64,000 nucleotides of DNA from a virus: IMG/VR virus record IMGVR_UViG_3300005289_000052, positions 1 through 64,000 of that record, one strand, 5' to 3'. Positions 24,638 through 42,831 of this stretch are shown here, piece after piece; positions within the stretch are counted from its first letter, which is position 1, and every line of letters begins with the position of its first letter. The position numbers and the translations under genes were made by a program. The notes under the pieces were generated by a model. It did no database searches, had not been told where the DNA came from, and saw nothing but the letters and a program-made list of their open reading frames with translations.

Positions 24638-27160
24638 ATGGCCGCGACCTATACTTACCCATTTGACCCCACCGGTTCCGCGACTACGAACGCCGTTGCT
24701 AACGAGCGGCACGTACTGTCACCCCCGGCGTGGACAGACTTTTACTTCATCGTTCCGAAGTTTGCACCTTACTTTCGGGACTCGCTCCGGGTAATCCATC
24801 GTCCTTCCGGCAAGCTGTTGGTCGAAGGGCAAGATTACCACTGCACCCACTACTTCCACGCAGCGTCTCATGGCGTGGCTCGTCGGGTGTATGGTTCGAT
24901 CACGTTCTTGGACAAGACCCTCACCGGTGTTGCCGAGATCAGCTATCAGACCATCGGTGGCGACTGGATTCTGGATGCTTCGGCTGACCTCACCCGTCTG
25001 ACCAACACCCAGCTCAACCCGCGCATCACTACTTGGGAACAAGTGGTCGACGTGCCGTATCAATTCCCACCGATCGATCACGAGTGGAACCTCGAAGACC
25101 TCAAGGGCGTTGAAGCCATCCTCCCGATCCTGGAAGAGATGACCGAAGCGATCCGTGAGTCTGCTGGTAGCGACTTCGCGCTTCACATCAACGACAAGAA
25201 CAACCCTCACAACGTCACCAAGGCGCAAGTAGGGTTGGACCAAGTTCAGAACTTCCCATTGGCGAACATCTCCGAGGCGCAACAAGCCACGGTGAACACT
25301 CGCTACATGACGCCTGTTCGCACCAAGAACTTTGTCGACTTCTACGTTGTACCGTTGCTCGACGCCCACAAGAACGATCTGAACAACCCGCACTCCACTA
25401 CTAAGGCACAAGTCGGCCTGGGTAGCGTCCAGAACTACGGCATGGCAACTCAAGCCGAAGCCGAAGCTGGTTTGGTAGCTAACAAATACATGACCCCGCT
25501 GCAAACTAAGCAGGCGATTGAAGCGTTGGCGAATGCGGGACTTGCGACCCACATTGCAGACAAGTCGAACCCTCACGGAACCACGAAGGCTCAGGTTGGT
25601 CTGGCTCTGGTAGAAAACTTCCCATTGGCTACCGCTGCGGAGGCACAAGCTGCTTCTCGTAACGATCGCTACATGACTCCGTTGACTACTGCTTCGGCAA
25701 TCAACACGTTGGTTGGCGAGTCTCTGACTCTGCACATCAATGCCACCAACAACCCACACATGGTTAACAAAACCCAAGTGGGTCTGGGAAGTGTACTGAA
25801 CTACGGGATTGCTGCGGAAGCTGATGCTGCTGCCGGTACTCGTAACGACTTGTACATGACCCCGTTGATGACCAAGAAGGCTATCGAGTCTCTGGCCACT
25901 GGTTCCATCGCATCTCACTTGGCTGACGACCAAAACCCCCACGCCACTACCAAAGCTCAAGTAGGTTTGGGTAGCGTGCAGAACTTCCCAATCGCTAACG
26001 TGACGGAAGCTCAACAGGGTACGTCGAACATTCGCTATATGACCCCACTGTTGGTGGCCGCTGCGATTGAAGCCCGCGTTGGTGAGTCTGGTGTGGCTGC
26101 TCACATCAGTGACTACAACAACCCACACAGAGTGACTGCTGCACAAGTAGGTGCTCCAACTACCGCTGCGATGAACACTGCGCTGCTGAGTAAGCTGGAT
26201 GCAACTGCCCAAGCTAAAGACTCTGCTTTGCTGGCTGGTCAAACTGTAGATCAGATCATCGCTGCTGCTGGTGGTGTGAAAGCACCTGACTCGGCTAAAC
26301 TCGATGGCAAAACCTACAGCGAAGTACTCGCCGCTGCTGCCCTCCAGAAAGCTCCTGACAGCGCCAAGCTCGACGGTAAGACTCTGGCCGAAGTGATCGC
26401 ACAAGCGAACGCCGATGTTGGCAAGCAGGACGTCGCTGTCCAGTACATCTTCGAAGAGGTGTCTAACGACGCCGAAACGTGGGTGCGGTTGGGTCAAACC
26501 GGGTACACGCCTGAACAGTCCGTTACTGACGTGGTCTTGATGATCAGCGGTGCAACCCGTACTGACGGTACGCCGGAAGCAGCCAGCACGGTAATTGTTC
26601 GAATGGCGTCCCACGGTGGTTCTGGTGCTGCTGTCAACATCACCTCATCGGCCACTCCTTCGTACTCGTTGATTCGTCAGCAAATGCCAAACGCCACTGC
26701 TGCATTGTGGTTGAAAACGGCAGTAGGTTGCGGCCCTGTAAGTGTCACAGTACTGTCTGGTAAAGAGTTCTGGACCTACGACGTGGAAGCAGACAACGAC
26801 ATTGCAGCCCCTGTGGGTGGTGGCGTTACCATTCCTGTCAATAGCTACGCATCGTCCGGTCTCGTCCCACTGACTGCGGTGAATGAACAGGTCACGATCG
26901 GTGCCGGTACCGCTAAGTTCTACCGCCTGAACTCATTGGTTCCTGACATCACCAAGGTCAACGTCCCTGGTGCCAAAGTCGAGGTGCGGGTACTGGACCA
27001 AGTGGTTGGTTCTTCGACTAACGGTCGTTGGATTGACTCTGAGGCTCTGATCTTGACGTCGATTGCTACTGCAACCGCCAGTGACCAGCGCGTGTGGCTC
27101 AACAACCTCTCCGACAGTGCACTCACCGTGTACGTCCGTGTGGAGATTCCTCAATTCTAA
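24638..27160 (+). CDS. Tail fibre protein with 61-residue repeats (fibre 1)
   Basis: 840 residues. Residues 1-110 form an N-terminal domain with YPFDPTG and GQDYH segments that matches the start of the fibre at 30157 and is probably the attachment module. Residues 183-505 hold six copies of a repeat with the core NNPHxxTKAQVGL and the end RYMTPL, as in the Phage_fiber_2 repeat of long tail fibres. Residues 520-600 have Ala-rich repeats (APDSAKLDGKT). The C-terminal 230 residues are a unique beta-rich head, probably receptor-binding. The start has GAGGAG upstream. Confidence 0.85.
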   Translation: MAATYTYPFDPTGSATTNAVANERHVLSPPAWTDFYFIVPKFAPYFRDSLRVIHRPSGKLLVEGQDYHCTHYFHAASHGVARRVYGSITFLDKTLTGVAEISYQTIGGDWILDASADLTRLTNTQLNPRITTWEQVVDVPYQFPPIDHEWNLEDLKGVEAILPILEEMTEAIRESAGSDFALHINDKNNPHNVTKAQVGLDQVQNFPLANISEAQQATVNTRYMTPVRTKNFVDFYVVPLLDAHKNDLNNPHSTTKAQVGLGSVQNYGMATQAEAEAGLVANKYMTPLQTKQAIEALANAGLATHIADKSNPHGTTKAQVGLALVENFPLATAAEAQAASRNDRYMTPLTTASAINTLVGESLTLHINATNNPHMVNKTQVGLGSVLNYGIAAEADAAAGTRNDLYMTPLMTKKAIESLATGSIASHLADDQNPHATTKAQVGLGSVQNFPIANVTEAQQGTSNIRYMTPLLVAAAIEARVGESGVAAHISDYNNPHRVTAAQVGAPTTAAMNTALLSKLDATAQAKDSALLAGQTVDQIIAAAGGVKAPDSAKLDGKTYSEVLAAAALQKAPDSAKLDGKTLAEVIAQANADVGKQDVAVQYIFEEVSNDAETWVRLGQTGYTPEQSVTDVVLMISGATRTDGTPEAASTVIVRMASHGGSGAAVNITSSATPSYSLIRQQMPNATAALWLKTAVGCGPVSVTVLSGKEFWTYDVEADNDIAAPVGGGVTIPVNSYASSGLVPLTAVNEQVTIGAGTAKFYRLNSLVPDITKVNVPGAKVEVRVLDQVVGSSTNGRWIDSEALILTSIATATASDQRVWLNNLSDSALTVYVRVEIPQF
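25184..26160 (+). repeat. Tandem 183-bp coding repeats in fibre 1
   Basis: The NNPH core codons start at 25199, 25382, 25565, 25748, 25931 and 26117, a period of 183 bases (186 for the last interval), i.e. 61 residues. Confidence 0.85.
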
Positions 27161-27168
27161 GGTGAACC

Positions 27169-30141
27169 ATGGCTAACCTGTCGTTAAGCGTTGAACCGGG
27201 GTACTACCTCGAAGCGCAACATGCCAATTGGGTACTCAGCTCTGAAGTTGACTTCATCAGCTTTGCACTCAACGGTGCACAACCTGCCCTGTCGAAGTAC
27301 ATCGCTTACGACACCCTGAATCCTGCTAACCCATTTATCGCCGTTACGGAAGACGGCACTGGGCGAGTGGTGTACGACGGTGGGTTTCCTAAGTTCTACA
27401 ACACCTTCGCTCCTGCGGCTGGACTTGATCCATTGTTCAGCCTAGAGTTCCGAGGGACCACCGCTGGTAACACGTCGGGTACGAACTTTTTCTACTACGA
27501 CATGTTCTGTGATACCAAGGTGACCATCGCAGCCGGTGACAAGCTGGTATACGACATCTGGACTAACGATGCTAACGCTCGTGTCGGTCTGGATGGCGTT
27601 ACCGCCAATGACCCAGCGACATTCCGTTACGCTTTGCGTGACTGGATCGATCAGACCAACCGTATCAAGGATCAGAACGGTTTGGGTTGTCACCCCGCTA
27701 CGGACCTTTCGGCTTACGCGTTGAACAAGTGGTATCACCGCGAGTTTGACCTCACTCTGTGTGCCGGTTACCGCTTCGATAAGTGGTCATTGGCTTACGA
27801 GGGTGAGAAGGCCGGTACGTTCTACACCCGGTTCAAAGAGGTGTACATCCTGGACAAGAACGGGAAGGTGAAAGCCACCCTGTTCAAGGACAAGATCCTG
27901 ATCGCCAACTCTGCAAACATTGAGGGTGGTGCATCGGGGTATACGAACATCTCCAAGACTATCTACGATCCACGTTCTCACCTGAACGCTGCTTTCAAGT
28001 ATCTGTTCAACGCCATCCGTTGGGTGTCGAAGACTTCGATGTTGGAGGCAGGGGTCAAGAAGATCCTGATCTTGGGTGACTCCTCTGGTGCGTCGAACTA
28101 CAAGGTCAAAGGTACGGCTTCCACTGACTTCTTTACCAGTTTGACCAACCTCTGTACGGCGGTTGGTTTTACTCCCACGTTTAAAGACGTGACGGACTAC
28201 GCTGGTGGGTTGTTGAATGCTACCTTGGCTGAGATGAACCAGTACGACTGTGTGTTGCTGATGGGCTCACAGAGCGGTACAGGTGCACTGATCACCACGT
28301 CGATGATTCAGGACATCCAGACCTACCGGCAACAAGGCGGTGGGATTATCATGATCACTGACCATGGTAACGATGTTCCCAACATCGGTGCTGCTTACCC
28401 ACCAAGTACGAGTACTGCGTTCTTCCACATGGTGAACGCCGTAGCAGTCAACTTCGGTGCATGGTTCTCGGGTAACTTCGACCGAGTACCAGTGAACGTT
28501 GGGTTCCTTCGCACCAACTACGGGGATCACCCTCTGTACGATGGCATGGAGAATACCGAGTCTATTGCTGCGGGCGGTTCTGAATCCAAGGTGATCATCA
28601 CCAACCCTCCACAGTATCGAGATCCTGTTCCTCCCATCGACATCTCTAAGCAAGGGGTGAATACGGTCAAGGTCATGGCTTTGTTGAAAAACGGCACCAT
28701 GGAGGCTTACAGCTTTGTCTATGTGATTGCCACTGGACAGTTGCTCAAGTTCCTTGATCCTGATGGCGTAGAGATCAACGCCCTGCCTGCCTCGTTCTCC
28801 TCTAAGGTGGACTTCAACGTTGAGGTAGTGGGTGCTGGTCTGGGTACGATTCAAGGGGACATCCAGCTCAACGGTAAAACGGTGGGTAAGTTGGCCTACA
28901 GTGATTCTGAGGGGAGTTCGCAAGCGTGGATGGCAGGTGGTTCTAACCAACTGTTCGTTAACAAAGGCGACGTCTTTACCGCTCGGATTACCAGTCCGTT
29001 CCAGTTCACGCGTAACTTGCCTGTCAATCGGTATCAGCCTAACCTCACGGGTTTGGTCACGGTGCCTGCGGTGGTGAAAGCCATGCGTGCTGATGGGTTC
29101 GGAACCACTGAGCACAACAAAGTGGTGAACGCTGGCATTCGTCAGATGAACTTGGAGTACTCGCATCTTCAATACTTGCCTAAGGGTGACTACGCACGGG
29201 ACATCATCCAGTTGCGTTCATTCTTTGGTAGCCAGTTGGAGAAGCCAGGACAACAGGTTTACATCTACCAGACGTTGGCTCAAGCCCAAGAAGCAATGGG
29301 GCGGTTGACTCCTCCTTCGGCTCGGGACGTGTTCAATACCTGGGACCGCTTCACCAACAACGAGTACTTCGTTGGCGGTGTGGGGGCTACGGGCGATGCC
29401 GCTGCTTGGCAGTGGAACGATGCGTTAGGTGCTGCGGTGCAACCGTTGAACACGGCAACGTGGAACGGCTTCATCTCTCCTGACGTGGTGGACAACTACG
29501 AACTGGATGTGGTGATCAAGTCGGACAACGCGGACGATGACTCCAACGGTCTGGTGTTGGCGTTGAATCGCGATGGTGGAATCAACCACCGTTTGATCGT
29601 AGCGTTGAACCAAGGGGGTAACTCTCCTGCGGCTTCTCACTCGATCGGGATCTACAGTGGCGCAACTACCCAACACCTGGTCTTGAATGACTTCGCTGGA
29701 CGTAAGTCCAACGCAGCGTTCCCAACTGATGGTGGATGGCGTGGGAAGTTCAGCCGTGTGAAAGTTACGCGGTCAGGCAACTACTTCAAAGTGTTGGCCA
29801 GTCAGTGGAACTCGCTTATCTTGGACCCTGCGTCCTTGATGGAATTGACACTGAACGACACCGCACTGCAAGCACAGTTCAAAGGGGCTAAGCCCTGGGG
29901 TTTCATCAACCTCTCGCAAGCACAGTCCTACTTCACCCTGCGCGGCTATAAAGGCGGTCCTCTGAAGGACGTAGTGGTGGTTGGTGCGACTGGCGCTGTG
30001 TATTACTACACCAACGGGGGTTGGGCTTTGATTCCCGGTACGACTGCTAAGGATGTCTTCGGATACCCTCGCAAGCTTACGAACCCAGAAACTGGTGCGT
30101 CGTTCATGGTTAACGCGAACGGCACGATCACCGCACTTTGA
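27169..30141 (+). CDS. Large tail fibre or tailspike-like protein (fibre 2)
   Basis: 990 residues; nine bases after fibre 1. The first 290 residues are beta-rich. Residues about 294-420 form an alpha/beta segment (KKILILGDSSG, YDCVLLMGSQSG, GGGIIMITDHG). Its strand order resembles glutamine-amidotransferase/ThuA-like or flavodoxin-like folds, unusual in a fibre. Residues about 720-905 look like a LamG/concanavalin-like beta-sandwich (NYELDVVIKSDNADDD, GNYFKVLASQWNS). The C-terminus is a short beta tip. It may bind or process surface glycans; that is inference. Confidence 0.7.
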   Translation: MANLSLSVEPGYYLEAQHANWVLSSEVDFISFALNGAQPALSKYIAYDTLNPANPFIAVTEDGTGRVVYDGGFPKFYNTFAPAAGLDPLFSLEFRGTTAGNTSGTNFFYYDMFCDTKVTIAAGDKLVYDIWTNDANARVGLDGVTANDPATFRYALRDWIDQTNRIKDQNGLGCHPATDLSAYALNKWYHREFDLTLCAGYRFDKWSLAYEGEKAGTFYTRFKEVYILDKNGKVKATLFKDKILIANSANIEGGASGYTNISKTIYDPRSHLNAAFKYLFNAIRWVSKTSMLEAGVKKILILGDSSGASNYKVKGTASTDFFTSLTNLCTAVGFTPTFKDVTDYAGGLLNATLAEMNQYDCVLLMGSQSGTGALITTSMIQDIQTYRQQGGGIIMITDHGNDVPNIGAAYPPSTSTAFFHMVNAVAVNFGAWFSGNFDRVPVNVGFLRTNYGDHPLYDGMENTESIAAGGSESKVIITNPPQYRDPVPPIDISKQGVNTVKVMALLKNGTMEAYSFVYVIATGQLLKFLDPDGVEINALPASFSSKVDFNVEVVGAGLGTIQGDIQLNGKTVGKLAYSDSEGSSQAWMAGGSNQLFVNKGDVFTARITSPFQFTRNLPVNRYQPNLTGLVTVPAVVKAMRADGFGTTEHNKVVNAGIRQMNLEYSHLQYLPKGDYARDIIQLRSFFGSQLEKPGQQVYIYQTLAQAQEAMGRLTPPSARDVFNTWDRFTNNEYFVGGVGATGDAAAWQWNDALGAAVQPLNTATWNGFISPDVVDNYELDVVIKSDNADDDSNGLVLALNRDGGINHRLIVALNQGGNSPAASHSIGIYSGATTQHLVLNDFAGRKSNAAFPTDGGWRGKFSRVKVTRSGNYFKVLASQWNSLILDPASLMELTLNDTALQAQFKGAKPWGFINLSQAQSYFTLRGYKGGPLKDVVVVGATGAVYYYTNGGWALIPGTTAKDVFGYPRKLTNPETGASFMVNANGTITAL

Positions 30142-30156
30142 TAAACAGGAAAGGTT

Positions 30157-31785
30157 ATGGGCACTATCATTGTTAAGTACCCGGAAGACCCGACGGGGAT
30201 CAACCCCAACAACCTGGTCATCAACGAGCCTCACGATCTTGGAGCAGGGCGCAATCGCGCCTTTGTTCCTAACTACGGTTCCTACTACACGGAGTCGATG
30301 ATCGTTACTGAGCTTGCGACCGGGCGGGTCCTCAAGAAGGGCGAGCACTACATCGCTGCACAGTTGCAACAAGAAGCCACGCTGGCGATGGACAAAGAGA
30401 TTTGTGCCGTTGTTGTCATCACTGACCCAAGCGTGCAAAACCAACTGCTGTTCACTTACCAAGTTGTTGGTGGTGTGTTCAGTACGTCGGTCTCTGCGTT
30501 GCAGAAAATGATCGAAGACCTCGATCTGGACGAACGGGCTGTTGAGTGGGGCGCCATCATTGGTAAGCCTACCGCATTCCCACCTGCTCCTCACCTTCAC
30601 GATATCGGCGACCTGTACGGTTTCGAATACCTCGTGGAAGCGTTGGATGCTCTGCGTAATGCTATCCTGATCGGCGACGAAGCCGCGCACGATGAATTGC
30701 GTCAGTACATCCAGTACGAGGATGGTCTCCTGCGTGCGTCGATTGCTGAGCTGAAAGGCCAGTTCGATGCTCACGCGCAGGACAAGAACAACCCGCACGG
30801 TACAACCAAAGCTCAGGTCGGACTCGGTTCGGTCGAGAACTACGGTATTGCTACCACCGCCGAGGCTCAGGCAGGCACTTCCAACGCGAAGTACATGACT
30901 CCTCTGCGTACTGCCGAAGCGATTGCTCAGCAAGCGTTGATTCCTCTGAACGCACACATTGCTGACAAGAACAACCCTCACCAAACCACCAAAGCCCAAG
31001 TTGGCTTAGGTAGTGTGGAGAACTACGGGGTTGCGACTACAGCAGAAGCACAAGCGGGTGTGAGTGACGTCAAGTACATGACGCCTTTGAAAACCAAAGA
31101 CGCCATTGCCCAACAAGCGCTCATCCCACTCAACGCTCACATCAACGATAAGAATAACCCCCACCAGACTACCAAAGCTCAGGTAGGGTTAGGCTCCGTT
31201 GAGAACTTTGCGTTGGCGACCACTGCGGAAGCCCAGGCGGGGACTTCGAACCTTAAGTACATGACACCTTTGCTCACTGCTCAGGCGATTGCACAGCAGG
31301 CTCTGATTCCCCTCAACAACCACATCGCGGATAAAAGCAACCCACACCAAACCACGAAGGCACAGGTTGGGTTGAGCGATGTAGACAACTTCGCAACGGC
31401 AACTACCGCAGAAGCTCAGGCTGGCGTTCTGAACACCAAGTTCATGACTCCCCTGCGGACCAAAGAAGCCATCGCCTTCCAAGTGGGTAACGCGCTGACT
31501 GCTCACTTGAACGACATGAACAACCCTCACAACACGACTAAAGCGCAAGTCGGTCTGAGTCTGATTCCTAACTCGATCACTCGTAGTCGGGCAACCAACT
31601 CTGACGGTTCGTTGCTTACTGCCGGGGGTATGTACGACCACGTCAACTCAGCAGACCACGATGCACGCTATGCACCGAAGAACACTGCGGGTGTAGATTG
31701 CTCTGTTCACTGGAACGGTAGTGGTGTGTACGTTTGGGGTGGTGGTGCTTGGCGTCAGGTATGGCCTGCTCAGTGGGCTGCGTAA
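30157..31785 (+). CDS. Tail fibre protein with 61-residue repeats (fibre 3)
   Basis: 542 residues. The N-terminal 115 residues match fibre 1 in order (YPEDPTG, NEPHDLG, GEHYIAA), so both probably attach at the same type of site. Residues 205-470 hold five near-identical 61-residue repeats (NNPHxTTKAQVGLGSVEN ... AEAQAG ... KYMTPL). The last 70 residues (SADHDARYAPKNTAG, VHWNGSGVYVWGGGAWR) form a small tip typical of phage fibres. It directly precedes the modification operon. Confidence 0.85.
   Translation: MGTIIVKYPEDPTGINPNNLVINEPHDLGAGRNRAFVPNYGSYYTESMIVTELATGRVLKKGEHYIAAQLQQEATLAMDKEICAVVVITDPSVQNQLLFTYQVVGGVFSTSVSALQKMIEDLDLDERAVEWGAIIGKPTAFPPAPHLHDIGDLYGFEYLVEALDALRNAILIGDEAAHDELRQYIQYEDGLLRASIAELKGQFDAHAQDKNNPHGTTKAQVGLGSVENYGIATTAEAQAGTSNAKYMTPLRTAEAIAQQALIPLNAHIADKNNPHQTTKAQVGLGSVENYGVATTAEAQAGVSDVKYMTPLKTKDAIAQQALIPLNAHINDKNNPHQTTKAQVGLGSVENFALATTAEAQAGTSNLKYMTPLLTAQAIAQQALIPLNNHIADKSNPHQTTKAQVGLSDVDNFATATTAEAQAGVLNTKFMTPLRTKEAIAFQVGNALTAHLNDMNNPHNTTKAQVGLSLIPNSITRSRATNSDGSLLTAGGMYDHVNSADHDARYAPKNTAGVDCSVHWNGSGVYVWGGGAWRQVWPAQWAA
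30768..31570 (+). repeat. Tandem 183-bp coding repeats in fibre 3
   Basis: Core codons start at 30787, 30970, 31153, 31336 and 31519, an exact 183-base period. The period equals that of fibre 1. Confidence 0.9.
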
Positions 31786-31838: not shown

Positions 31839-32345
31839 ATGGGTAATGTGAGTGGCTCTTTATTTGGCTGTATCACAGAGTCTACCCTACAGGTAGACGA
31901 CATCCTTAGTAGTCCTTACCCCTATGAGCAACAGCTTGTAAAGATTCTCACAGGGGACATTGTCATTGACGCTATGAGTGTTTCAGATGTCTTGGAACAC
32001 TCAGACAAGGTCATCAAGATTGAAGGGATCGAGAAACTCAATCGATCCCTGTACCAAGCTTGCAAAGACCTAGCAGAGGTTATGGAACATGATGGGCCTA
32101 TTACTTGCCATCTGTTCCTGTCTCCTGCTGGGGGTAAGAGCTTTCCTTGGCACGATGATCCCGACGACGTGTACCTGTACATGGTCGAGGGTGCTAAAAC
32201 TATGGCTGTGGGCAACGAAGTCCATAAGCTGACCAAGTGGGACCATCTCTTCATTCCACGAGGCACGCAACATAGAGCTGTGAACTATCACGCCTCGAAG
32301 ATGCTAAGCTTTGGGTTGGAGCGATTCATTGCTGAGAAGCTCTGA
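31839..32345 (+). CDS. JmjC/cupin-like Fe(II)-dependent protein
   Basis: 168 residues. Residues 103-150 read PWHDDPDDVYLYMVEGAKTM ... LFIPRGTQHRAVNY. H105-x-D107 and H145 give the HxD...H metal triad of JmjC/cupin oxygenases, and the FIPRGTQH segment is typical of this fold. It is shorter than most JmjC hydroxylases, and the first 90 residues are helical and unrecognised. It is the first gene of the run that continues into six radical SAM genes; its stop overlaps the next start. A hydroxylase acting on a peptide or protein is the simplest reading. Confidence 0.65.
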   Translation: MGNVSGSLFGCITESTLQVDDILSSPYPYEQQLVKILTGDIVIDAMSVSDVLEHSDKVIKIEGIEKLNRSLYQACKDLAEVMEHDGPITCHLFLSPAGGKSFPWHDDPDDVYLYMVEGAKTMAVGNEVHKLTKWDHLFIPRGTQHRAVNYHASKMLSFGLERFIAEKL

Positions 32346-33379
32346 TGACCAAAACTATTTACGTCAAAACCACCGGTACCTGTAACCTTGCGTGCAAGCA
32401 TTGCTTCACCAACGGCAAGAACGGTGATCGTACCCAATTTGATCCAGTGCAGTTCGGTGACTGGATTGAAGAGTACATGTCCAAACACCCTAAAGGGACC
32501 GAGTACCACCTCGAGTTCCATGGTGGTGAACCCTTCCTTGTTCCACTCCCTAAGCTGATCCAGCTCGCGGATCGTTTTTATGACCGTGACGGGGTGTCGA
32601 TGTGCGCCAACAGCAACTTGACGTTTAAGTTGACTGAGGAACTCATCGCCTTTATTAAGCATTACTTCTACGGACACATTGGCACCAGTTGGGACCACTG
32701 GATTCGTTGGGGTAATCAAAAACAGTTTGACCTTTGGCGGTCGAACTTGAAAACCTTGCGTGAGCGTGATGTCTGCATCTATCTCAAGGTGTCGGTGAGT
32801 CGTGAGTTGATCAAGACCACACCGGACTGGTTCTTGGACCAGATCGAAAGCTTTGGGGTAACTGAGGTTTCGTTGGAGCGTCTAACGATGGACGGCAGTG
32901 CCAACGAGAACTTGGACATCTTCCCTAACAACGAGGAACAGGACAACTGGTACCTCGAGCTGTACAAGCGATACAAGCAACGCAAACTCAACTTCAAGAT
33001 CCGAACCCTCGACATCCTTGAGCAGAAGCTTAAGTACAACGTGGTGAAGGTGGACACCAACTGTCGCAACTGTGAACAGAATCTGGTGACCATCAACTCT
33101 AACGGGACTTTGGGTGGTTGTCCGAACGTGGCCTCTGCAAGACAGCATGCTCGTTTGGAAGAAGGGGCTGATGCGTTTCTCTCCTCGGATGCTCGGGTAG
33201 AAGAGATCGCTAAGGAATTGACTTGGGGTGATGGTTGCTTGAACTGTGACGTGTTCGACTTATGCGGTGGGGATTGCCATCGCTTGCCTTGGCAGAAGGG
33301 TCGCTGTGGTGGCCTTAAGAACACGCTGAGGTATTTGTCGGGCCGTTCCACACAATCCAATTTGATCCTGAAGGTGTGA
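32345..33379 (+). CDS. Radical SAM enzyme with SPASM-like C-terminus (rSAM 1)
   Basis: 344 residues. The CxxxCxxC cluster site is C13, C17, C20 (TCNLACKHC), followed by GGEP near residue 62. The C-terminus has a Cys-rich region (CRNCEQ ... GGCPN ... CLNCDVFDLCGGDC) like SPASM auxiliary-cluster domains, which bind extra 4Fe-4S clusters in peptide-modifying enzymes. The gene starts in an overlap with the JmjC-like gene and ends two bases before the Cys/His-tailed protein, which is therefore its most likely substrate. The exact reaction cannot be told from sequence. Confidence 0.8.
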   Translation: MTKTIYVKTTGTCNLACKHCFTNGKNGDRTQFDPVQFGDWIEEYMSKHPKGTEYHLEFHGGEPFLVPLPKLIQLADRFYDRDGVSMCANSNLTFKLTEELIAFIKHYFYGHIGTSWDHWIRWGNQKQFDLWRSNLKTLRERDVCIYLKVSVSRELIKTTPDWFLDQIESFGVTEVSLERLTMDGSANENLDIFPNNEEQDNWYLELYKRYKQRKLNFKIRTLDILEQKLKYNVVKVDTNCRNCEQNLVTINSNGTLGGCPNVASARQHARLEEGADAFLSSDARVEEIAKELTWGDGCLNCDVFDLCGGDCHRLPWQKGRCGGLKNTLRYLSGRSTQSNLILKV

Positions 33380-33380
33380 A

Positions 33381-33935
33381 ATGACGGACATTACAAGACA
33401 GATGGTCGCTGACCAAGCGAACGCTGTGATTCGAGGGAACGCCAACGCCGGTATCTCGTGGGGGACGAACAGCTTCCCTGCTGGTGCCCTGGCTGGTTGG
33501 TTTGGTGGGTCGACTGCGGGTAACCCCGTAGCCCTCAGTGCTGGTAGCATTGCTGCTGGCAACCTTTCGGCATCGAACGTGTCAGCGGTACTGCGTAACT
33601 TCACCAACCAGTTTGCTGCGATTCGTCGTACGCGGATTGTGGTTTATTACGCTAAGAACTGGGGTGAGGATTACATCTACTCCGGTGTTGATGTGCGCGT
33701 GGACTCTACGGCTATTGCCTATACGGCGTATCCTGCTGGCAGTCCCGGTAACAACGCAGCACTCCCTGGCTTGGCGGCAGGGGCCACTGCCTCGTGGGGT
33801 AATATGGCGGCGTGTATCAACAACCTGTGGGCACAGTACAACGAGATGTGTCGTAACACCACGTTGACACTGACCAACACCATCTGTCACTCGAGCTGCC
33901 ACGACAACTGTCACTGCAACCGTGGGCGTCGTTAA
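33381..33935 (+). CDS. Gly/Ala-rich protein with CHxxCHxxCHC tail, candidate modified precursor
   Basis: 184 residues. Residues 1-80 are Gly/Ala/Asn-rich. Residues 85-120 are beta-like (RIVVYYAKNWGEDYIYSGVDV). The last 16 residues contain C169, C173, C177 and C179, each of the first three followed by His (CHSSCHDNCHC), then NRGRR. Four-residue Cys spacing recalls CXXX-repeat peptides linked to radical SAM maturases. It starts two bases after rSAM 1. It may be a ribosomally made, post-translationally modified peptide precursor, a modified fibre tip, or a metal-binding protein. No homolog recognised. Confidence 0.6.
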   Translation: MTDITRQMVADQANAVIRGNANAGISWGTNSFPAGALAGWFGGSTAGNPVALSAGSIAAGNLSASNVSAVLRNFTNQFAAIRRTRIVVYYAKNWGEDYIYSGVDVRVDSTAIAYTAYPAGSPGNNAALPGLAAGATASWGNMAACINNLWAQYNEMCRNTTLTLTNTICHSSCHDNCHCNRGRR

Positions 33936-33945
33936 GGAGTCCTCA

Positions 33946-34692
33946 ATGTCTGAAGAAAAACCTCTGGTCCAAGTTGAGGTCACTGCTCCGATTCCTCTGG
34001 ACGTGCTCAAGCGCAAGTTCAAAGAGAACATCGAGTTCGTTATCGACTACGATGCGAGCAAGCTTAAGGGTAAGGTGTTGATCACCTACCTGAGCAACCT
34101 CAAGATCAAGTGTCGCCTGAAACTGACTGACCAGTCTGTTGCACTGGCGTTGGTGGAAGAGTACCTGAACATTCCGGTACTGGTCGATATGTCAGACCTT
34201 GAAGACTTGGCGATGGACATTCTGTTGGCCTACACAGGCAAGCCGAACCGCATCGCTGTGGACCTGTCTGACTTCTTCGTTCGTAACAAGGAAGCACTGG
34301 ACCGTTGGGTACGTCGTCTGTACTCCATTCCTCTGTACGCTTTGTGGTCGATGGAGCAGTACAAGTCCGAGGTAGAGAAATTCCCAGTGGACGAGGAAGA
34401 TACCATTGCTGGTGTCAACTTCGTGATGCTGATCGCTCACCCTGACTTTGCCGTCTTCATGGAAAACGTTCAAGAGGACCAATACACTTGGTGCCCAACG
34501 TTCTTCAAGGAGTACGTGTTCCAGGGTAGCAACCTCTTCAACTTCTTTGCTGACGAGCGCAACCCGTTCTTCGTGGGACTTCTGGCCATCCAGAGTCCTG
34601 AAATGTTTAACGAGATCGCACCGAAAGTCCAAAAGGCTTACGACGATTCCGTGGCCCTCATGAAAGGTATCGAGCATGTACCATCTCTTTAA
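33946..34692 (+). CDS. Uncharacterised protein of the modification operon
   Basis: 248 residues from the ATG at 33946 with AAGGAG upstream. Acidic, mixed alpha/beta, aromatic-rich (WCPTFFKEYVF). No cofactor or catalytic motif. It overlaps the next gene by 17 bases and lies between the candidate substrate and the second radical SAM gene. Possible roles are substrate delivery or chaperone; nothing in the sequence proves one. Confidence 0.65.
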   Translation: MSEEKPLVQVEVTAPIPLDVLKRKFKENIEFVIDYDASKLKGKVLITYLSNLKIKCRLKLTDQSVALALVEEYLNIPVLVDMSDLEDLAMDILLAYTGKPNRIAVDLSDFFVRNKEALDRWVRRLYSIPLYALWSMEQYKSEVEKFPVDEEDTIAGVNFVMLIAHPDFAVFMENVQEDQYTWCPTFFKEYVFQGSNLFNFFADERNPFFVGLLAIQSPEMFNEIAPKVQKAYDDSVALMKGIEHVPSL

Positions 34693-35731
34693 CTCGGTGT
34701 ATGTAGACCTCGAGCGCCGCATCAACCGCACGGTCGACAACATCACCATCTCGCCGTACATTGGTCTGGAGTATTTCCCAGGCCAGAACGAAACTGCTGG
34801 TCGTCAGATCGGTTACGCCAAGACCATGGAATCGGTTGAACCCGAAGTCCTGATCGGCTGGTTCAAAGAAGCCATGCTGTCCAAAGAGAAGACCTTCATC
34901 TTCTGCGACGGCACCACCTACATGCGGTTGTACTCCATGTTGGTGAAAGCGGTACTGCCCAAGGTGGACCTCGAAACCTTCAAGTGGATCTGGCTCTGCA
35001 AGAAGGCAACCTTCAACACTTCGTTGACCAACTGGAAACAGCCTGGCAACAACGTGCTGGATGGTTTGGAGATCACCACCGAAACCGTCGAGATGATGTT
35101 CAACCTCGACGACCCTCATCAAGAGGCCTTCACTGCACTGCTCGCCGGTAACGACGATGTAGTCTCACTGGAGTGGCATATCCTGCGTCTGGCGGCTATC
35201 GGTTACGTGGGCATCGTTCCTAAGCGTCTGAAACACATCCTGCGTCGTATCGCTCTGGCGAACACTCATGATGCACTCGATGTTTGGGGTCGTGTGATCA
35301 CTGATCCTGAACACTGGGAATACGCTGGCGCTGACCGTGACACCCTGCTCGATGCTCCTAGTGTGTTCCAAGGTGCACTGAACCTTCACTTTACCAACAA
35401 CCCGATCTTCTTGAAGCCTGGGCTGTTCGTGAAGCATCCTCAAGATGCGTGGCTCTGCAACCTGCTGGAAGAACTGCACCCGTTGCTCGAGCGTGTAGGT
35501 GAGGGTCCAACTGCCAAGCGTACGTTGAAGATCCTGAGCTTCCTGCGAGACCTCAACCCGCTGTCCGATCCAGGTAAGTGTCTGGAACGCTGCCGTGACT
35601 TCTTTGTTGGTATTGATCGGCTGGCCATGCCAAACCGTGACTCCAGCAAGTACGACGAAAACCTGATCCGTTATATCCTCAGTCGTGACCAGGCAGATCT
35701 GGCACGCATGTTTGAAGGGGCAACTTGGTGA
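34676..35731 (+). CDS. Uncharacterised protein of the modification operon
   Basis: 351 residues, mostly helical, rich in Leu, Asp, Glu and Trp. No CxxxCxxC or metal triad. It shares a 17-base overlap with the gene before it and a GTGA overlap with the following radical SAM gene, so the three are translated together. Function unknown. Confidence 0.65.
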   Translation: MYHLFNSVYVDLERRINRTVDNITISPYIGLEYFPGQNETAGRQIGYAKTMESVEPEVLIGWFKEAMLSKEKTFIFCDGTTYMRLYSMLVKAVLPKVDLETFKWIWLCKKATFNTSLTNWKQPGNNVLDGLEITTETVEMMFNLDDPHQEAFTALLAGNDDVVSLEWHILRLAAIGYVGIVPKRLKHILRRIALANTHDALDVWGRVITDPEHWEYAGADRDTLLDAPSVFQGALNLHFTNNPIFLKPGLFVKHPQDAWLCNLLEELHPLLERVGEGPTAKRTLKILSFLRDLNPLSDPGKCLERCRDFFVGIDRLAMPNRDSSKYDENLIRYILSRDQADLARMFEGATW

Positions 35732-36735
35732 ATTTAATCCCGGTGGTAGACGTACTAGCGGACAAGAAAGGCGCAACGAAAGAAGCACACCTGATCTTGT
35801 TCGAGAAGTGTAACCTGCGTTGTTCGTTCTGCCACCAGGACCACGATTCAACCGTAGGTTTGGATGCGGATGAGATCATGCGTAAAGGGATCAGGCTCGT
35901 TGAGTCCTCAGACCTTGAAGCACCGATCGTTATCAACATCACTGGCGGCGAGTTGTTTACCGACGACATCGAAGACTGGATGTTTGGGTACTACCTGTCC
36001 TTGGGTGAGTACCTGCTGCAAAACTTCAAACGCGCTAAGATTGTCTACGGGACGAACTTGGTGTACGAGAAGGTATGGCGTGTCGAGCGACTGATGACCA
36101 TGTTGAGCGCTCATAGCTCTCCTAGTCAAGGGGTTAGCTTGTCGACGTCATACGACCCCGCAGGCCGGTTCAATCCAGCACAGCGGGAATTGTTCTTCAA
36201 GAACTTGGAACGGGTTGGCCTTTGGGTTGACACGGTAAACGTGGTAATCACTAAACAGAACATCGACGTCTTCCTGAACGACCGTGAGGGCGTTGAGGTG
36301 AAAGATCTGGCGTACGACTACGATCTGTATTTTGATCATTACATACCAAGCGAAAGATATGAAGAGCACCAACCTACTGAGTCACAGATCCGTCAACTCT
36401 ATTTGAAGCTGGCGAAGAAGTATCCTCTCTCGTATCCCATTGCCTCCTGGAAAAACCAGCAGTTCAATGAGACGACTTGTCGTTCCACCAAGATCATCAA
36501 CAAAGATGGTGTGGTGACTACGTGCTGGTCGGAAGCGGGGAAGGATGCGATCCTTGACGAAGGTGAAGGGTTGGTTGCTAAACAATCGGCGGAAGAACGG
36601 TTTATCGAACATTACGGGTGTTTGTCGTGTGAGTATTACCAACGCTGCGGTTTGCGTTGTTTCCTCCACCACAGCTTTATCGAAGGCTCTTCCACAGAGT
36701 GTGAGATCAAGCTCCTGTTCGACGAAATCTTGTAG
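35728..36735 (+). CDS. Radical SAM enzyme (rSAM 2)
   Basis: 335 residues with a GTG start (AAGGGG upstream; an adjacent TTG is less likely). C28, C32, C35 form the CxxxCxxC motif (CNLRCSFC), with TGGEL around residue 72. The C-terminal Cys pattern (CLSCEYYQRCGLRC) resembles SPASM/twitch domains. It is followed by a hairpin inside the operon and then another radical SAM gene. The likely role is radical chemistry on a peptide or protein substrate. Confidence 0.8.
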   Translation: MNLIPVVDVLADKKGATKEAHLILFEKCNLRCSFCHQDHDSTVGLDADEIMRKGIRLVESSDLEAPIVINITGGELFTDDIEDWMFGYYLSLGEYLLQNFKRAKIVYGTNLVYEKVWRVERLMTMLSAHSSPSQGVSLSTSYDPAGRFNPAQRELFFKNLERVGLWVDTVNVVITKQNIDVFLNDREGVEVKDLAYDYDLYFDHYIPSERYEEHQPTESQIRQLYLKLAKKYPLSYPIASWKNQQFNETTCRSTKIINKDGVVTTCWSEAGKDAILDEGEGLVAKQSAEERFIEHYGCLSCEYYQRCGLRCFLHHSFIEGSSTECEIKLLFDEIL

Positions 36736-36741
36736 CCCAGG

Positions 36742-36767
36742 GCCGGTGGATAAAACCACCGGCTTTG
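36742..36767 (+). terminator. Intra-operon hairpin, possible attenuator
   Basis: GCCGGTGG, loop ATAAAA, CCACCGGC followed by TTTGTGCCGTC, which matches the terminator-tail consensus (TTATGCCGTC) with a G for A. It lies between rSAM 2 and rSAM 3, so it may reduce downstream expression or mark a processing site. Confidence 0.55.
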
Positions 36768-36788
36768 TGCCGTCACTAAGGGGTTAGT

Positions 36789-37877
36789 ATGGATCTCATT
36801 ATAAAGCCAACCGTGAAATGTAACTTCAAGTGCACGTTCTGTTCGAGCACGCACTTGTCAGAAGAACCGAAAGACATTGTCGAGTTGGCTGATATCGAAG
36901 CCTTCTTGAAGCGTTACCCCGACACCCGGACCATCATCGTTAACGGTGGTGATCCATTGATGATGCCACCCAAGTACTACTGGGACATGATCGAGATCCT
37001 AGACCGTTTGGACATGGACACTGTCATCTCCTTTACCACGAACCTGTGGGCGTTCTACAAGAAACCTGAACTGTGGGCTCCGTTGTTTAAGCTGGATCGG
37101 ATTGGTGTCAACACCTCGTTCCAGTACGGCGACAAACGTCTCAAGGGAGACGGTACTCCTCTGACTGAGGATGAGTTCATTGCGATCTCTGATCTGTTCT
37201 TGGAGAAGGTTGGGTATCGTCCAGACTTCATTGCGGTGATTGACCAAGACAACGTTGACACGGTCATCCCGACGGTAGAGTTGGCTAAGCGCCTAGGTCT
37301 GGAGGCGAAGATCAACTACGTCTCTGCATCTGGTCCTGAGGTTGTGAATCGCGGTGTGGTAATGGGGAGCATCAACAACTTCTACACTCAAGCTGACATG
37401 TACGAACAATACATCAAGATCTACGACGCAGGTCTGATGGAGTGGGAGTACAACACCAAGCAGATGTCTCGTCGCTTGAAGTTTGGTAACACGACTTGTC
37501 CTTTGGCCCGGTCCTGCGATGAAGGCATCCGTGCGTTACAACCTGGGCAGACGTACTTCTCTTGTGGTAGTTTCGGGGATGATGGCGAATACCCGATTGA
37601 CTTCCAGAAAGAGATGGCGGGTGAGTTCTTCACGCCTTTGCAAGTCGTTCCTGAATTGGATTCGATGAAAGATGCGTGCTACACCTGCCCGATGTTCAGC
37701 ATCTGTAATGGATGTCGTAAGACTGTGGCTGACACTAAACGCTTTGGACTCACGGAGTACCACTGCAAGAAGATGAAGTCACTTGCTCCACGCATCATCG
37801 AGATCAACGGCATGACGGGGTTGTTGGAACCCACCCCTTACGTTGATGAATCCGTCCAGATCATTGCAAGGGGCTAA
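36789..37877 (+). CDS. Radical SAM enzyme with SPASM-like domain (rSAM 3)
   Basis: 362 residues. C11, C15, C18 form CNFKCTFC near the N-terminus, and NGGDP follows. The C-terminal half has many Cys (CPLARSC, YFSCGSFG, CYTCPMFSICNGC), as in SPASM domains with two auxiliary clusters. AAGGGG lies before the ATG. Typical length for peptide-modifying radical SAM/SPASM enzymes (350-450 residues). Substrate unknown. Confidence 0.8.
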   Translation: MDLIIKPTVKCNFKCTFCSSTHLSEEPKDIVELADIEAFLKRYPDTRTIIVNGGDPLMMPPKYYWDMIEILDRLDMDTVISFTTNLWAFYKKPELWAPLFKLDRIGVNTSFQYGDKRLKGDGTPLTEDEFIAISDLFLEKVGYRPDFIAVIDQDNVDTVIPTVELAKRLGLEAKINYVSASGPEVVNRGVVMGSINNFYTQADMYEQYIKIYDAGLMEWEYNTKQMSRRLKFGNTTCPLARSCDEGIRALQPGQTYFSCGSFGDDGEYPIDFQKEMAGEFFTPLQVVPELDSMKDACYTCPMFSICNGCRKTVADTKRFGLTEYHCKKMKSLAPRIIEINGMTGLLEPTPYVDESVQIIARG

Positions 37878-37878
37878 C

Positions 37879-38070
37879 ATGGCCGCACTCACCGAAGAGC
37901 AGGCGTTCCTCCATATCCAGACCATCCTGCGTGACGAGATCGGTTACCTTCAACGTCAATATGCGCAACGTGGTCTTCAATACAACCCAATCGACATGGC
38001 CGAGTTCGAGAAACAGGTTCGTGAAAAGTTGGTTGATATCTTACTTGAATGTGGCGGGGTAGCTGTATGA
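37879..38070 (+). CDS. Small uncharacterised protein of the modification operon
   Basis: 63 residues from the ATG at 37879 (AAGGGG). Helical and charged; no Cys-rich core except one near the end (LECGGVAV). Its stop overlaps the next start (ATGA). Too short to assign; it could be a small carrier or chaperone, or a peptide substrate, but has no leader-core split that I can see. Confidence 0.6.
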   Translation: MAALTEEQAFLHIQTILRDEIGYLQRQYAQRGLQYNPIDMAEFEKQVREKLVDILLECGGVAV

Positions 38071-38447
38071 CTCACGAAGTAAAAGACAATGTTCACCTGA
38101 TCCATGGATTGATTGACACTCAGACCGGTGCCGACCCAATCTGCGTCTACATCGACAAGGAAAGCTTGGTCGACATGTTGGAGGACATCGTTCACAACGT
38201 GGTGACAGTGCGTTACTGGATCAGCAGTAATCCGCTGAAGACTGTGGAGGAAGCAGACATGCAAACCCTCGAACAGGTCAACGGTTATCTGGATGCTGAG
38301 ATCCAACATCGTTACTCAGACATCACCGGTTACTTGTGGACCGATGAACACTTCAAGGTGGGTGGTCATGACCTGATCCCAATCTTTGAAGAGGCCGAAG
38401 AGAAGTACCTCCTACTGGAAATCACGGTCCATGAAAAGTCCGATTAA
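38067..38447 (+). CDS. Uncharacterised protein of the modification operon
   Basis: 126 residues, acidic and helical (EEADMQTLEQVNGYLDAEI). No motif. Its 3' end overlaps rSAM 4 by 17 bases. Its partnership with the preceding 63-residue protein is suggested by coupling only. Confidence 0.6.
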   Translation: MTHEVKDNVHLIHGLIDTQTGADPICVYIDKESLVDMLEDIVHNVVTVRYWISSNPLKTVEEADMQTLEQVNGYLDAEIQHRYSDITGYLWTDEHFKVGGHDLIPIFEEAEEKYLLLEITVHEKSD

Positions 38448-39366
38448 CCTCAGTCTCAACCTGACCTACTACTGTAACTTCAAGTGTGAGTTCTGTTACC
38501 TCACGCCTGAACAGTTGCGAGATCGTCAACGTCTGCCTCTGGACATTCTGGAGCAGCAGCTAGACAAGGTCCTGGAGCAATACGACGTACATCACGTAGA
38601 CATCTACGGTGGTGAGGTCATGGTGTTGCCGAAGGACTATCTGTTCCAAGTGCGTGACATCCTTCATGCTCGAGGCATCGACGACCTGGTGTTGATCACT
38701 AACGGGTCTGTCCTCAACGAAGTAACCTCGTGTATGGACTTCGACCTGAGCATCTCCTACGACCTCACAGCGCGTGAGAGAAGCGATTGGGTACTGGGCA
38801 ACATCTTTATGCTCGATCGTCCCTTCTCGATGCTTACGCTGGCTTCTAGGAAGTTCCTGGACACGGTTACGCCTGACGACTACGTTCAAGAGCTGAACAT
38901 GCTCAATGGGATGAAGTGTGCAGAGATCAAACCGTACTCTTCAAACCAAGCCAACCAACAAAGCGTGAGTTACAAAGAGTTCGAGGACTTCGTTTGGGCT
39001 GTGATCAATCACCCTGATCGACAGTTCTACTTCGAGAACCGCACGCAAGTCAAAGAGGCGGCAGAAGGTAAGCGTAACGCTTATAGTGACGATCACCTGT
39101 ACATCACACCGAAGGGTGAGTTTGCAGTGCTCGAGTTCGATCACAACGACCATGAGTTCTTCTTAAGGATGGACTCCCTCCATGACTACCGTAACTGGTG
39201 TCAGGTCGAACGATTCCGTGTGGAGGGCAACCTGTTCTGCGGTGCGTGCCCTTACAAAGGAGGCTGCCTGTCGGAACACTTACGCGACGTGAAGTCCTTG
39301 GACAACTCCTGTAATGGATTCCGAGGACTCCTAGACAGGTGGGTAGAACATGCAGGTTCAACATAG
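38431..39366 (+). CDS. Radical SAM enzyme (rSAM 4)
   Basis: 311 residues from the ATG at 38431; an upstream in-frame ATG lies deep inside the previous gene. C15, C19, C22 form CNFKCEFC; YGGEV follows near residue 55. The C-terminus has FCGACPYKGGC, a short SPASM-like or twitch pattern. It overlaps the next gene by 17 bases. Assigned to the radical SAM family by motif; substrate unknown. Confidence 0.8.
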   Translation: MKSPINLSLNLTYYCNFKCEFCYLTPEQLRDRQRLPLDILEQQLDKVLEQYDVHHVDIYGGEVMVLPKDYLFQVRDILHARGIDDLVLITNGSVLNEVTSCMDFDLSISYDLTARERSDWVLGNIFMLDRPFSMLTLASRKFLDTVTPDDYVQELNMLNGMKCAEIKPYSSNQANQQSVSYKEFEDFVWAVINHPDRQFYFENRTQVKEAAEGKRNAYSDDHLYITPKGEFAVLEFDHNDHEFFLRMDSLHDYRNWCQVERFRVEGNLFCGACPYKGGCLSEHLRDVKSLDNSCNGFRGLLDRWVEHAGST

Positions 39367-40354
39367 GCAGCGTTTGGAAATCACCCTCGATATCTTTCGG
39401 GGGTGTGGTCATCACTGTGTCGGGTGTATGATCGACAAACAGTTGGGTGGTGAGGTCAGCGACATTCCTGAACTACTCCAACTGATTGAGGAAATGACAG
39501 CCGTGGGTTACGTCGCCTTTGACTTAGGTGTCGGACCTACTGACTACATGTCCTCTGACAACGTTCAAGACGTGATGGGCAATGAGACCTTCCAAGCGAT
39601 GGCTCAACTGTTCCATCAGGTTACGTTCAACGCAGCGTTCTTGGAAAAGGATCTGGAGAAGTACGAAGCGATGTGCCAAGACATTGATCTGGCGTGTCCT
39701 GGTAAACCGATCCGCTTCCTGATCCCTGCTGCACCGACCTTCTTTAAGAACGAGAAGTTCGGCAACATGATCGTGCAGAAGCTCGAACACATCAAGGCCA
39801 CGTTCCAATCAGCGTTCCTCAATGAGGCAGGCTTTGTGGTGACGTGTAACCATGAAACGATGGACGAGAACTTTGACGCTAACATGCGCAATGGATTTGA
39901 TGTTGAGTTCCCTGTGGACAAAGACGACATCTTAAACATTCCGTATGGTCGTACCAAGAACCTTGACCTGATGGTGGGTCAACGGGTCAAGCGGGTCTCG
40001 CACCAGATCAGTGAGTTCTATGCAGGACTGGAAGGGGAAGACGAGCGTCGCAAGAACCCAGATTTGCACTACGACACAGGCACGATGGTTAACCTGTTGT
40101 ACACTGGTGGAAAGCTGTACTGGGTTCCCTTCCTTAAAGACGACTGTCCGTTCATACACGACGAGTTTGTCGTTCCGAGGCCCTGGACTATGGATAACCT
40201 TCTGCGCGTGCGTAACAGCGCTATGGAGCGTTCTGTGGAGTATCTCCAAGGCACCGAGTGTCTGAACTGTGTGCACTTCGCCAGTTGCATGGAGAAAGGC
40301 ATCAGTACCATCATGCAGAAGCTTTCGATTCGCGATTGCCTAGTGGGGTTGTGA
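39350..40354 (+). CDS. Divergent radical SAM enzyme (rSAM 5)
   Basis: 334 residues. C19, C23, C26 form CGHHCVGC. The usual GGE motif is replaced by GVGPTDYMSSDN, which is shared with rSAM 6. The C-terminus has CLNCVHFASC, a reduced SPASM-like pattern. The stop overlaps the rSAM 6 start (TGATG). The pair forms a subfamily distinct from rSAM 1-4. Confidence 0.75.
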   Translation: MQVQHRQRLEITLDIFRGCGHHCVGCMIDKQLGGEVSDIPELLQLIEEMTAVGYVAFDLGVGPTDYMSSDNVQDVMGNETFQAMAQLFHQVTFNAAFLEKDLEKYEAMCQDIDLACPGKPIRFLIPAAPTFFKNEKFGNMIVQKLEHIKATFQSAFLNEAGFVVTCNHETMDENFDANMRNGFDVEFPVDKDDILNIPYGRTKNLDLMVGQRVKRVSHQISEFYAGLEGEDERRKNPDLHYDTGTMVNLLYTGGKLYWVPFLKDDCPFIHDEFVVPRPWTMDNLLRVRNSAMERSVEYLQGTECLNCVHFASCMEKGISTIMQKLSIRDCLVGL

Positions 40355-41406
40355 TGTTTGCGCTCAGGATTTCCAAATCGTTTAACCTCTCCTTAGAAAT
40401 CCTTAAGGGGTGCGGGTTCAGTTGCCCTGGGTGTACAGTTGAGAAGAACTTTGCTCCCATGGAAATCCCAGAAGCAGACGCTCAGGCTCTGTTGGCTCTC
40501 GTGGATGAATTGAAAGCTGATGACTTCCGACTGTTGGAATTGAAGTTAGGTCCCACTGACATCACCAGCTCTGACAACGGCTTTGCAGCAATGCAACACC
40601 CGTTCGTTAAAGAGATGGCGTTACGGTACAAAGCTTTGAACATCAGCCACCCCATGCTTCATGATCGTGGGTTTGTGGAACTGGCTCAGTTGATTGATGA
40701 ACTGATCCCAGGTAAAAAGCTCAGCGTCGGTGTTCCAATGACGTTGAAGAATATACAGAACCCGAAATATATGGCGCTGGTTAAACAGCACATCGCGTTG
40801 TTCAAAAGTCTGCTTAAGAAAGTCGACTTCAACCGTGTGTATGCAACCTTCAACGTGATCGAAGACAACTTGGAGAACCTGTCCGTAGAGAGTTACGAGC
40901 AGGCACACCAGATGGATTTAGGTGACGTTGGGATTGTGGTGGAGTTTCCTTTCGCCCACTCTCGCCAAGGGATGGATAACTTGCTGGTGTTGGACAGATT
41001 CCGTCGGGACCTGTACCACTTCACCGAGTTCATTAAAGAACGGGCTAACACTAAAAGCTTTCGACCACTGCAACCTGCTGTGTTGAGCGGGATTGAGTTC
41101 ACGTACCGGGCTGGGTCTTTGTACTCTACTCCGGTGCTGGTTGAGAACTTGCCGATCTTCCATCCTGATTTCGAGTTACCCAAACCTTGGAGCGCATCTG
41201 AACTGATGTCGTTCTTGGAGAATCGTTACTACGATAACCTCATCGAGTTTGCAGACCACCCTGAGTGTGGGAACTGCTGCTTCCTCGACAACTGTGCTCG
41301 TGGTGATGTTCACCGCATCATGAAGCTGGTAGGACGTGACACCTGTCTGACTGGCACTAAGAACCGCTGGGACTTGATCCTAGTAGAGGATGGCCTGAAT
41401 GATTAA
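40354..41406 (+). CDS. Divergent radical SAM enzyme, paralogue of rSAM 5 (rSAM 6)
   Basis: 350 residues from the ATG at 40354. C20, C24, C27 form CGFSCPGC, followed by KLGPTDITSSDN in place of GGE. The C-terminus has CGNCCFLDNC. Similarity to rSAM 5 across the length suggests tandem duplication. Overlaps the next gene by eight bases. Confidence 0.75.
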   Translation: MFALRISKSFNLSLEILKGCGFSCPGCTVEKNFAPMEIPEADAQALLALVDELKADDFRLLELKLGPTDITSSDNGFAAMQHPFVKEMALRYKALNISHPMLHDRGFVELAQLIDELIPGKKLSVGVPMTLKNIQNPKYMALVKQHIALFKSLLKKVDFNRVYATFNVIEDNLENLSVESYEQAHQMDLGDVGIVVEFPFAHSRQGMDNLLVLDRFRRDLYHFTEFIKERANTKSFRPLQPAVLSGIEFTYRAGSLYSTPVLVENLPIFHPDFELPKPWSASELMSFLENRYYDNLIEFADHPECGNCCFLDNCARGDVHRIMKLVGRDTCLTGTKNRWDLILVEDGLND

Positions 41407-42829: not shown

Positions 42830-42831
42830 CC

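Follow-up and report, generated by a model that had tools for sequence, protein, structure and literature searches.

What is the role of a 184-residue protein whose C-terminal end is rich in cysteine and histidine, and whose gene is embedded among radical SAM genes of a giant phage? Reports on jumbo phages and on the host-recognition islands of marine phages have listed radical SAM genes again and again with no role attached, and published phage papers list such enzymes without a function (PMC8066314, PMC11898562, PMC5468394). The window, i.e., the whole stretch of DNA analyzed here, is the first 64 kb of a giant phage record of 243,669 bases. The original prediction placed in it an open reading frame for 184 residues at 33381–33935 (+ strand), ending CHSSCHDNCHCNRGRR, and saw in its product a candidate radical SAM substrate. 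Coordinates, length and tail all proved exact.

The cassette and its tail protein

Virion and tail-fibre type genes lie directly 5′ of the cassette (all genes given here are on the + strand). Two tail-fibre type genes match the same repeat PHROGs, at 24638–27160 (phrog_2163, phrog_13857 and tail-fibre PHROGs) and at 30157–31785 (phrog_2163, E = 1.8e-175, and tail PHROGs), with another virion structural or tail-fibre type gene between them (27169–30141; phrog_11065, E = 2.9e-142; phrog_33406, tail fiber). The product of 30157–31785, which adjoins the cassette, carries NPHxTTKAQVGLGxVxN repeats. A one-strand run of genes then extends from 31839 to 43386, starting at a cupin gene and ending at a 2OG-oxygenase-like gene.

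The run opens with a cupin/JmjC-like oxygenase candidate (31839–32345; PF07883 and PF08007 above cut-offs), followed by rSAM1 (32345–33379), whose Radical_SAM score of 28.3 bits lies slightly under the Pfam cut-off of 29.5. With CX3CX2C at residue 13 and the full seven-cysteine SPASM pattern, rSAM1 nevertheless has the features that broadly define protein-modifying radical SAM/SPASM enzymes. Then come the tail protein gene, w4 (33949–34692; phrog_20767), w5 (34676–35731), which matched no family, the radical SAM/SPASM-like rSAM2 (35725–36735; phrog_1802; CX3CX2C at residue 29) and the radical SAM gene rSAM3 (36789–37877; PF04055, E = 3.1e-11; CX3CX2C at residue 11). Two small ORFs, one called at 75 aa (37843–38070) and one of 132 aa (38049–38447; weak phrog_20281), precede the radical SAM gene rSAM4 (38386–39366; PF04055, E = 1.7e-08; CX3CX2C at residue 30). 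They are followed by two diverged radical SAM-like genes, rSAM5 (39350–40354; CGHHCVGC at residue 19; PF04055 13.6 bits, below cut-off) and rSAM6 (40258–41406; CGFSCPGC at residue 52), the true start of the latter probably being internal. Three 2OG-Fe(II) oxygenase-like genes close the run (41399–41854, PF13640 27.3 bits; 42155–42829, PF13759 40.4 bits; 42832–43386, PF13759 35.5 bits; cut-off 27 in each case), and among them lies w163 (41781–42272; phrog_20737, E = 1.1e-32), which recurs in cassettes of phages and predatory bacteria. The best or second PHROG of the first and the last of these oxygenase-like genes is phrog_274, named "DNA endonuclease V"; Pfam favours a 2OG oxygenase, and the PHROG name looks like a misannotation.

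The tail gene was said to start close behind the first radical SAM gene, and this is the case: a single base separates the last base of rSAM1 (33379) from the ATG (33381), 5′ of which lies an AAGG sequence. From its sequence, its predicted structure and its position after rSAM1, we describe the tail protein as a predicted folded domain (residues 1–166) with a Cys-His tail (residues 169–184, 33885–33932). It has no hydrophobic N-terminus, as judged by eye. A cysteine at every fourth residue had been proposed for the tail. This spacing holds for C169, C173 and C177, each of which is followed by histidine, but C179 comes only two residues further on, and its position is variable among relatives, which usually have G, S or T there. 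CHSSCH and CHDNCH formally contain CXXCH, the haem site of c-type cytochromes, but the two sites overlap.

Linkage of the tail to the enzymes

Among annotated phages, Pseudomonas phage pPa_SNUABM_DT01 comes closest (38% identity), and the rSAM1 region also matches Burkholderia phages SURPRISE13, FLC6 and FLC8, Agrobacterium phage Atu_ph07 and Sinorhizobium phage Phosso. In the four loci inspected (DT01, SURPRISE13, Atu_ph07 and Phosso), the gene after rSAM1 ends CHTSCHTSCHSARGRR, CHSSCHTSCHGSRGRR, CHSSCHASCHNSRSRR and CHTSCHASCHSSRSRR, respectively; the N-terminal part of its product is diverged or unrecognizable by BLAST, while the C-terminal end is alike. A scan of viral contigs for the tail pattern gave at least 119 stretches. 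As such a scan presupposes the motif, searches were also run with rSAM1 and with w4 as baits. Among the best 80 of 355 rSAM1 relatives, 79 viral loci had room downstream, and in 77 of these the protein after rSAM1 ends CHxxCHxxCHxxR[GS]RR; in the remaining two the tails are diverged and end CHSNCHINRSRR and CHTSCHSNCNCNRGRR. With w4 as bait, the tail was found upstream, nearly always immediately, in all 76 loci with room. The two sets have contigs in common and include near-copies, and neither count is therefore one of independent events. The 78 tails nevertheless comprise 65 distinct DNA versions. A chance motif was ruled out, since the two independent baits both recover the tail.

Beyond the search pattern itself, Ser or Asn at −9, Ser at −5, Gly at −3 and a stop right after the last Arg are conserved, and R[GS]RR and CH are the most constant features. 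The fetched loci contain 5,825 ORFs of 80 aa or more, of which 243 have an R[GS]RR end; each of these 243 also has CH within its last 20 residues. The count is not unbiased, because many of these loci were fetched on account of the tail. In all, the tail is always accompanied by the same radical SAM set, both in other phages, which number in the hundreds, and in certain predatory bacteria. A putative substrate gene adjoins modifying enzymes across lineages, as broadly expected of a RiPP precursor. This near-universal linkage strongly supports the central idea of the original prediction. Homologues with the enzyme and without the tail had been named as evidence against it, and the two exceptions turned out to carry diverged tails instead. 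That the tail is a substrate of the radical SAM enzymes thus appears well supported, but indirectly so.

The enzymes themselves are well preserved. CX3CX2C is present in 175 of 175 rSAM1 homologues and the strict seven-cysteine SPASM pattern in 172 of them; the former motif is kept in nearly all homologues of rSAM1–4 and rSAM6, including 79/79 full-length homologues of rSAM6. As the motif cysteines are retained, rSAM1–4 and rSAM6 are probably active. Comparison of gene order across loci gave a core of tail protein, w4, rSAM1–4 and often w163, common to single-tail, tandem-tail and bacterial cassettes, with w4 adjoining the tail gene in the single-tail type. The cupin, w5, rSAM5/6 and the 2OG enzymes are accessory, although a cupin and 2OG oxygenases usually accompany the core; homologues of w5 are found in many cassettes, and of 77 single-tail loci, 75 have the cupin directly 5′ of rSAM1. 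The tandem-tail type (L009, L028, L046, L069, L085 and similar loci) has two successive proteins of about 127 aa, both CH-tailed, and behind the pair there is often a radical SAM-like protein with CX3CX2C. A tblastn search of the annotated phage collection gave no match to the tandem-type tail protein.

Selection on the two parts of the tail protein is very uneven, with a mean pairwise identity among 48 relatives of 0.36 in the domain vs. 0.80 in the tail. In the tail DNA, the codons of the three Cys and three His are split near 50:50 between synonyms and the Arg codons are mixed; the constraint is therefore on the protein, and a DNA-level element was ruled out. The number of CH repeats also varies, from two units in L148 to longer arrays in which blocks of CH units are separated by NVPV or NVV spacers (L130:6034–6714; L147, about 6530–6750). 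Such variation is as expected for a repeat that would be acted on by enzymes. The expanded arrays of L130 and L147 are natural variants for probing the function of the repeat.

These patterns bear on a reading in which the tail is a passive tag, with the enzymes docking on CH...RGRR and modifying the folded domain or a neighbouring fibre protein. A docking signal would fit with R[GS]RR, which is one of the most constant elements, and with the variable number of CH units. However, the domain is far more variable than the tail, so that no equally conserved target is seen within the tail protein, and the neighbouring fibre genes come from different families; we find this reading quite improbable.

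The predicted structure of the tail protein comprises a folded alpha/beta domain, with 121 residues at pLDDT ≥90, and a flexible tail, with pLDDT of about 53. In a Foldseek search of predicted viral proteins, it matched its Atu_ph07 counterpart (E = 1e-4) at 12% identity; the fold thus seems to persist after the sequence has diverged. The first 166 residues had been described as a neutral leader; they are instead a confidently predicted domain conserved as a fold, and the models thus disfavour a mere leader peptide. Fold searches of the PDB gave no usable match to the tail protein, solved fibres or tips included. The model of w4 is also confident (mean pLDDT 93.5), and PDB fold searches gave neither a match nor a recognizable peptide-recognition fold for it. 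The tail-protein domain fold is matched in BFVD by three proteins of 504–660 aa from Myoviridae sp. ctijX18 (A0A8S5USJ8, A0A8S5USJ7, A0A8S5USV2), which may be larger fibre proteins that include this domain.

Fibre genes in phages and predatory bacteria

The arrangement with fibre genes extends beyond the window. The gene 5′ of the cupin falls into either of two fibre-type families in 63 of 77 viral loci, namely the family of 30157–31785 in 24 loci and another in 39; this count is by family membership, and the members tested match tail-fibre or virion PHROGs. Other genes are found upstream in some viral loci. For pelagimyophages, a published study has independently located radical SAM cassettes in the host recognition cluster (PMC7029224).

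This placement also weighs on the possibility of a released RiPP, in which the modified tail would be cut off and freed by lysis as a small molecule such as a bacteriocin or a signal. Radical SAM/SPASM enzymes beside a Cys-rich C-terminal peptide do resemble RiPP clusters, and there is weak similarity to PapB and cyclophane maturases. On the other hand, the placement of the cassette tracks fibre genes, neither the cassette genes of the window nor the annotated region of DT01 include a recognizable protease or exporter, and the part upstream of the tail, unlike a disposable leader, is predicted to form a folded domain that keeps its fold where sequence similarity is lost. We therefore regard a released product as unlikely, and favour a modified tail that stays on its folded domain.

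The tail is not restricted to phages. A scan of a genome collection with one genome per species (84,980 species) found it on 19 contigs, about half of them Bdellovibrio-like by their titles. Among the bacterial matches, L208, L213, L215, L216, L220 and L225 were discarded because they look, by substrate type, like phage contigs in MAGs, and L211, L212 and L218 because they look like chance matches. Five bacterial genomes have the common cassette gene set. For two of them, G001 and G005, misbinned phage contigs were ruled out by individual inspection of the genes, and the flanks, which by eye resemble genes for acyl-CoA metabolism, cytochrome oxidase and SecA, look chromosomal. In the w4 tree, the Bdellovibrionota side stands apart from the phage side (94/87), with long branches. 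A B12-binding-type radical SAM protein is encoded in one bacterial cassette (L235:7228–8907), with homologues in G002 and G005, and its presence suggests an extra step such as methylation.

Within the Bdellovibrionota, w4 occurs in 17 of 368 genomes and the strict tail in 9 of these. The eight other w4 genomes have variant tails, CHGNFPPPCHGSRGRR (four genomes), CHTNVPTPPPCHASRGRR, CHSNCYTPPPKSRSRR, CHSNHCSHSNHGSRGRR and CHSSHSSHSSHSSRGRR, in which the spacing is altered, yet CH is kept and the end is R[GS]RR in all. In some w4-linked tails the CH spacing changes greatly, as in CHGNFPPPCH and CHSSHSSHSSHSS. Such changes would hardly be tolerable for a fixed metal site, and they argue against a reading in which the Cys and His of the tail merely bind Zn, Fe or Cu, as in an armoured spike tip, while the radical SAM enzymes act elsewhere nearby. 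Three regularly spaced Cys-His pairs could plausibly form a metal site, the spike tips of phages can contain iron, and a modified tail could bind metal too. Nevertheless, the tail is tied to the enzymes in every locus tested and follows w4 despite the altered spacing, and metal binding leaves the invariant RxRR end unexplained. We thus hold this explanation to be very unlikely, and retain a tail that is modified by the enzymes.

Proteins with Peptidase_S74, a fibre chaperone domain, neighbour the bacterial cassettes, and some of them have an N-terminal pilin methylation motif. S74 genes were found within about 9 kb of w4 in 4 of 6 further genomes tested. Adding G001, G002 and G005 (by Pfam) and G003 and G004, where the call is by BLAST homology only, brings the number of bacterial cassettes with S74 fibre/pilin-like genes nearby to 9 of the 11 checked. 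Three such genes from Bdellovibrio-like contigs (L234:16158–17192, L236:9628–10917, L241:15720–16712) encode a C-terminal Peptidase_S74, two of them with the pilin-type N-methylation motif, and they possibly represent pilin/tail-fibre hybrids. The genes next to them encode a protein of about 200 aa that ends GRHWVKVK and a short one whose N-terminus is of the RR type. In Bdellovibrio, S74 fibres are known to lie on the surface and have been tied to prey handling (PMC10769870). A structural tip with a cross-linked tail had been offered as an alternative to an enzyme substrate. The tip gains from the position of the cassette beside fibre genes in phages and predatory bacteria, and for the same reason it is probably part of the same answer and not a rival to it.

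Proposed maturation and known systems

Taken together, the 184-residue protein is likely to be the dedicated substrate of a radical SAM maturation system and a fibre-associated component of the virion. From gene content and sequence conservation, the tail is very probably chemically remodelled, and the remodelled tail would most likely sit on a host-recognition fibre. We infer the modification, its site and mode, the presentation by w4 and the location on the virion. We propose that the folded N-terminal domain is retained and that the tail, (CHxS)n followed by SRGRR, would be presented to rSAM1–4 with the help of w4, a putative presenting or scaffold protein. The Cys and His or neighbouring tail residues would then be modified, most plausibly by cross-links such as thioethers, with hydroxylations possibly added by the cupin and the 2OG oxygenases of the accessory set, while the terminal R[GS]RR is probably the recognition or docking end. 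The matured protein would most likely be fibre-associated, at or near the tip that contacts the host, and in Bdellovibrio-like bacteria the same system may serve a comparable surface fibre. Virion proteomics has been published for phage PhiRP31 (PMC5468394).

We put forward only tentatively the broader view that this is a widespread new modification chemistry, in which at least four radical SAM enzymes and a new core protein would build a modified Cys-His peptide on the tips of host-recognition fibres, in tailed phages and predatory bacteria, to engage Gram-negative cells. Should the product be a modified fibre tip, it would constitute, to our knowledge, the first virion protein matured by radical SAM enzymes, and a new chemistry by which hosts or prey are recognized. 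The radical SAM genes of phages are now tied to a single, concrete candidate substrate with an end that hardly varies between unrelated phages and predatory bacteria, and this makes their function directly testable.

No known radical SAM-peptide family fits the cassette: none of its enzymes reaches any curated NCBIfam cut-off, all being far below. There is a real chance that the tail system is a new class within radical SAM protein modification. In the literature covered, mostly outside subscription papers, no description of the tail or of its link to the enzymes was found. A related published setting is that of the pelagimyophages, likened here by the location of the radical SAM genes in a tail-fibre island alone; the portion of that study considered gives no substrate or function (PMC7029224). 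The MAT fibres of Bdellovibrio bacteriovorus are phage-like S74 surface fibres used on prey (PMC10769870), and S74 genes lie beside the bacterial cassettes as well. However, the S74 proteins described here are short, have a pilin-like N-terminus in the two tested cases and are linked to radical SAM genes, which the MAT fibre paper does not mention (PMC10769870).

Among enzyme families, PapB-type ranthipeptide maturases and anaerobic sulfatase maturases share with rSAM1 a radical SAM domain and a seven-cysteine SPASM domain, but differ in substrate and neighbourhood. Membership was rejected for PapB (45.9 bits vs. a cut-off of 340 for NF047865), and the score for the sulfatase maturases was similarly low (47.2 vs. 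349). The original prediction pointed to peptides with CXXX repeats. The target family (TIGR04115) does have Cys at every fourth residue and an adjacent radical SAM gene, whereas here a His follows each conserved Cys and the repeat ends in RxRR; the best cassette enzyme scored 16.6 bits vs. a cut-off of 350, and membership in this family was abandoned.

The closest concept is the His-Xaa-Ser system (HxsA, TIGR03979; HxsB, TIGR03978; HxsC, TIGR03977). Its enzymes were rejected as a match (25.2 bits vs. 370 for HxsB and at most 23.3 vs. 267.9 for HxsC), as was its substrate HxsA, which the window protein does not match and for which the best variant reached 16.1 bits vs. 121.65. Nevertheless, it has C-terminal His-x-Ser repeats on a longer protein and more than one radical SAM enzyme, and the Bdellovibrionota variant CHSSHSSHSSHSSRGRR is a His-Ser-Ser repeat. 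Compared with this system, the Cys-His pairs, the RxRR end, w4 and the phage fibre context are additions in the present one.
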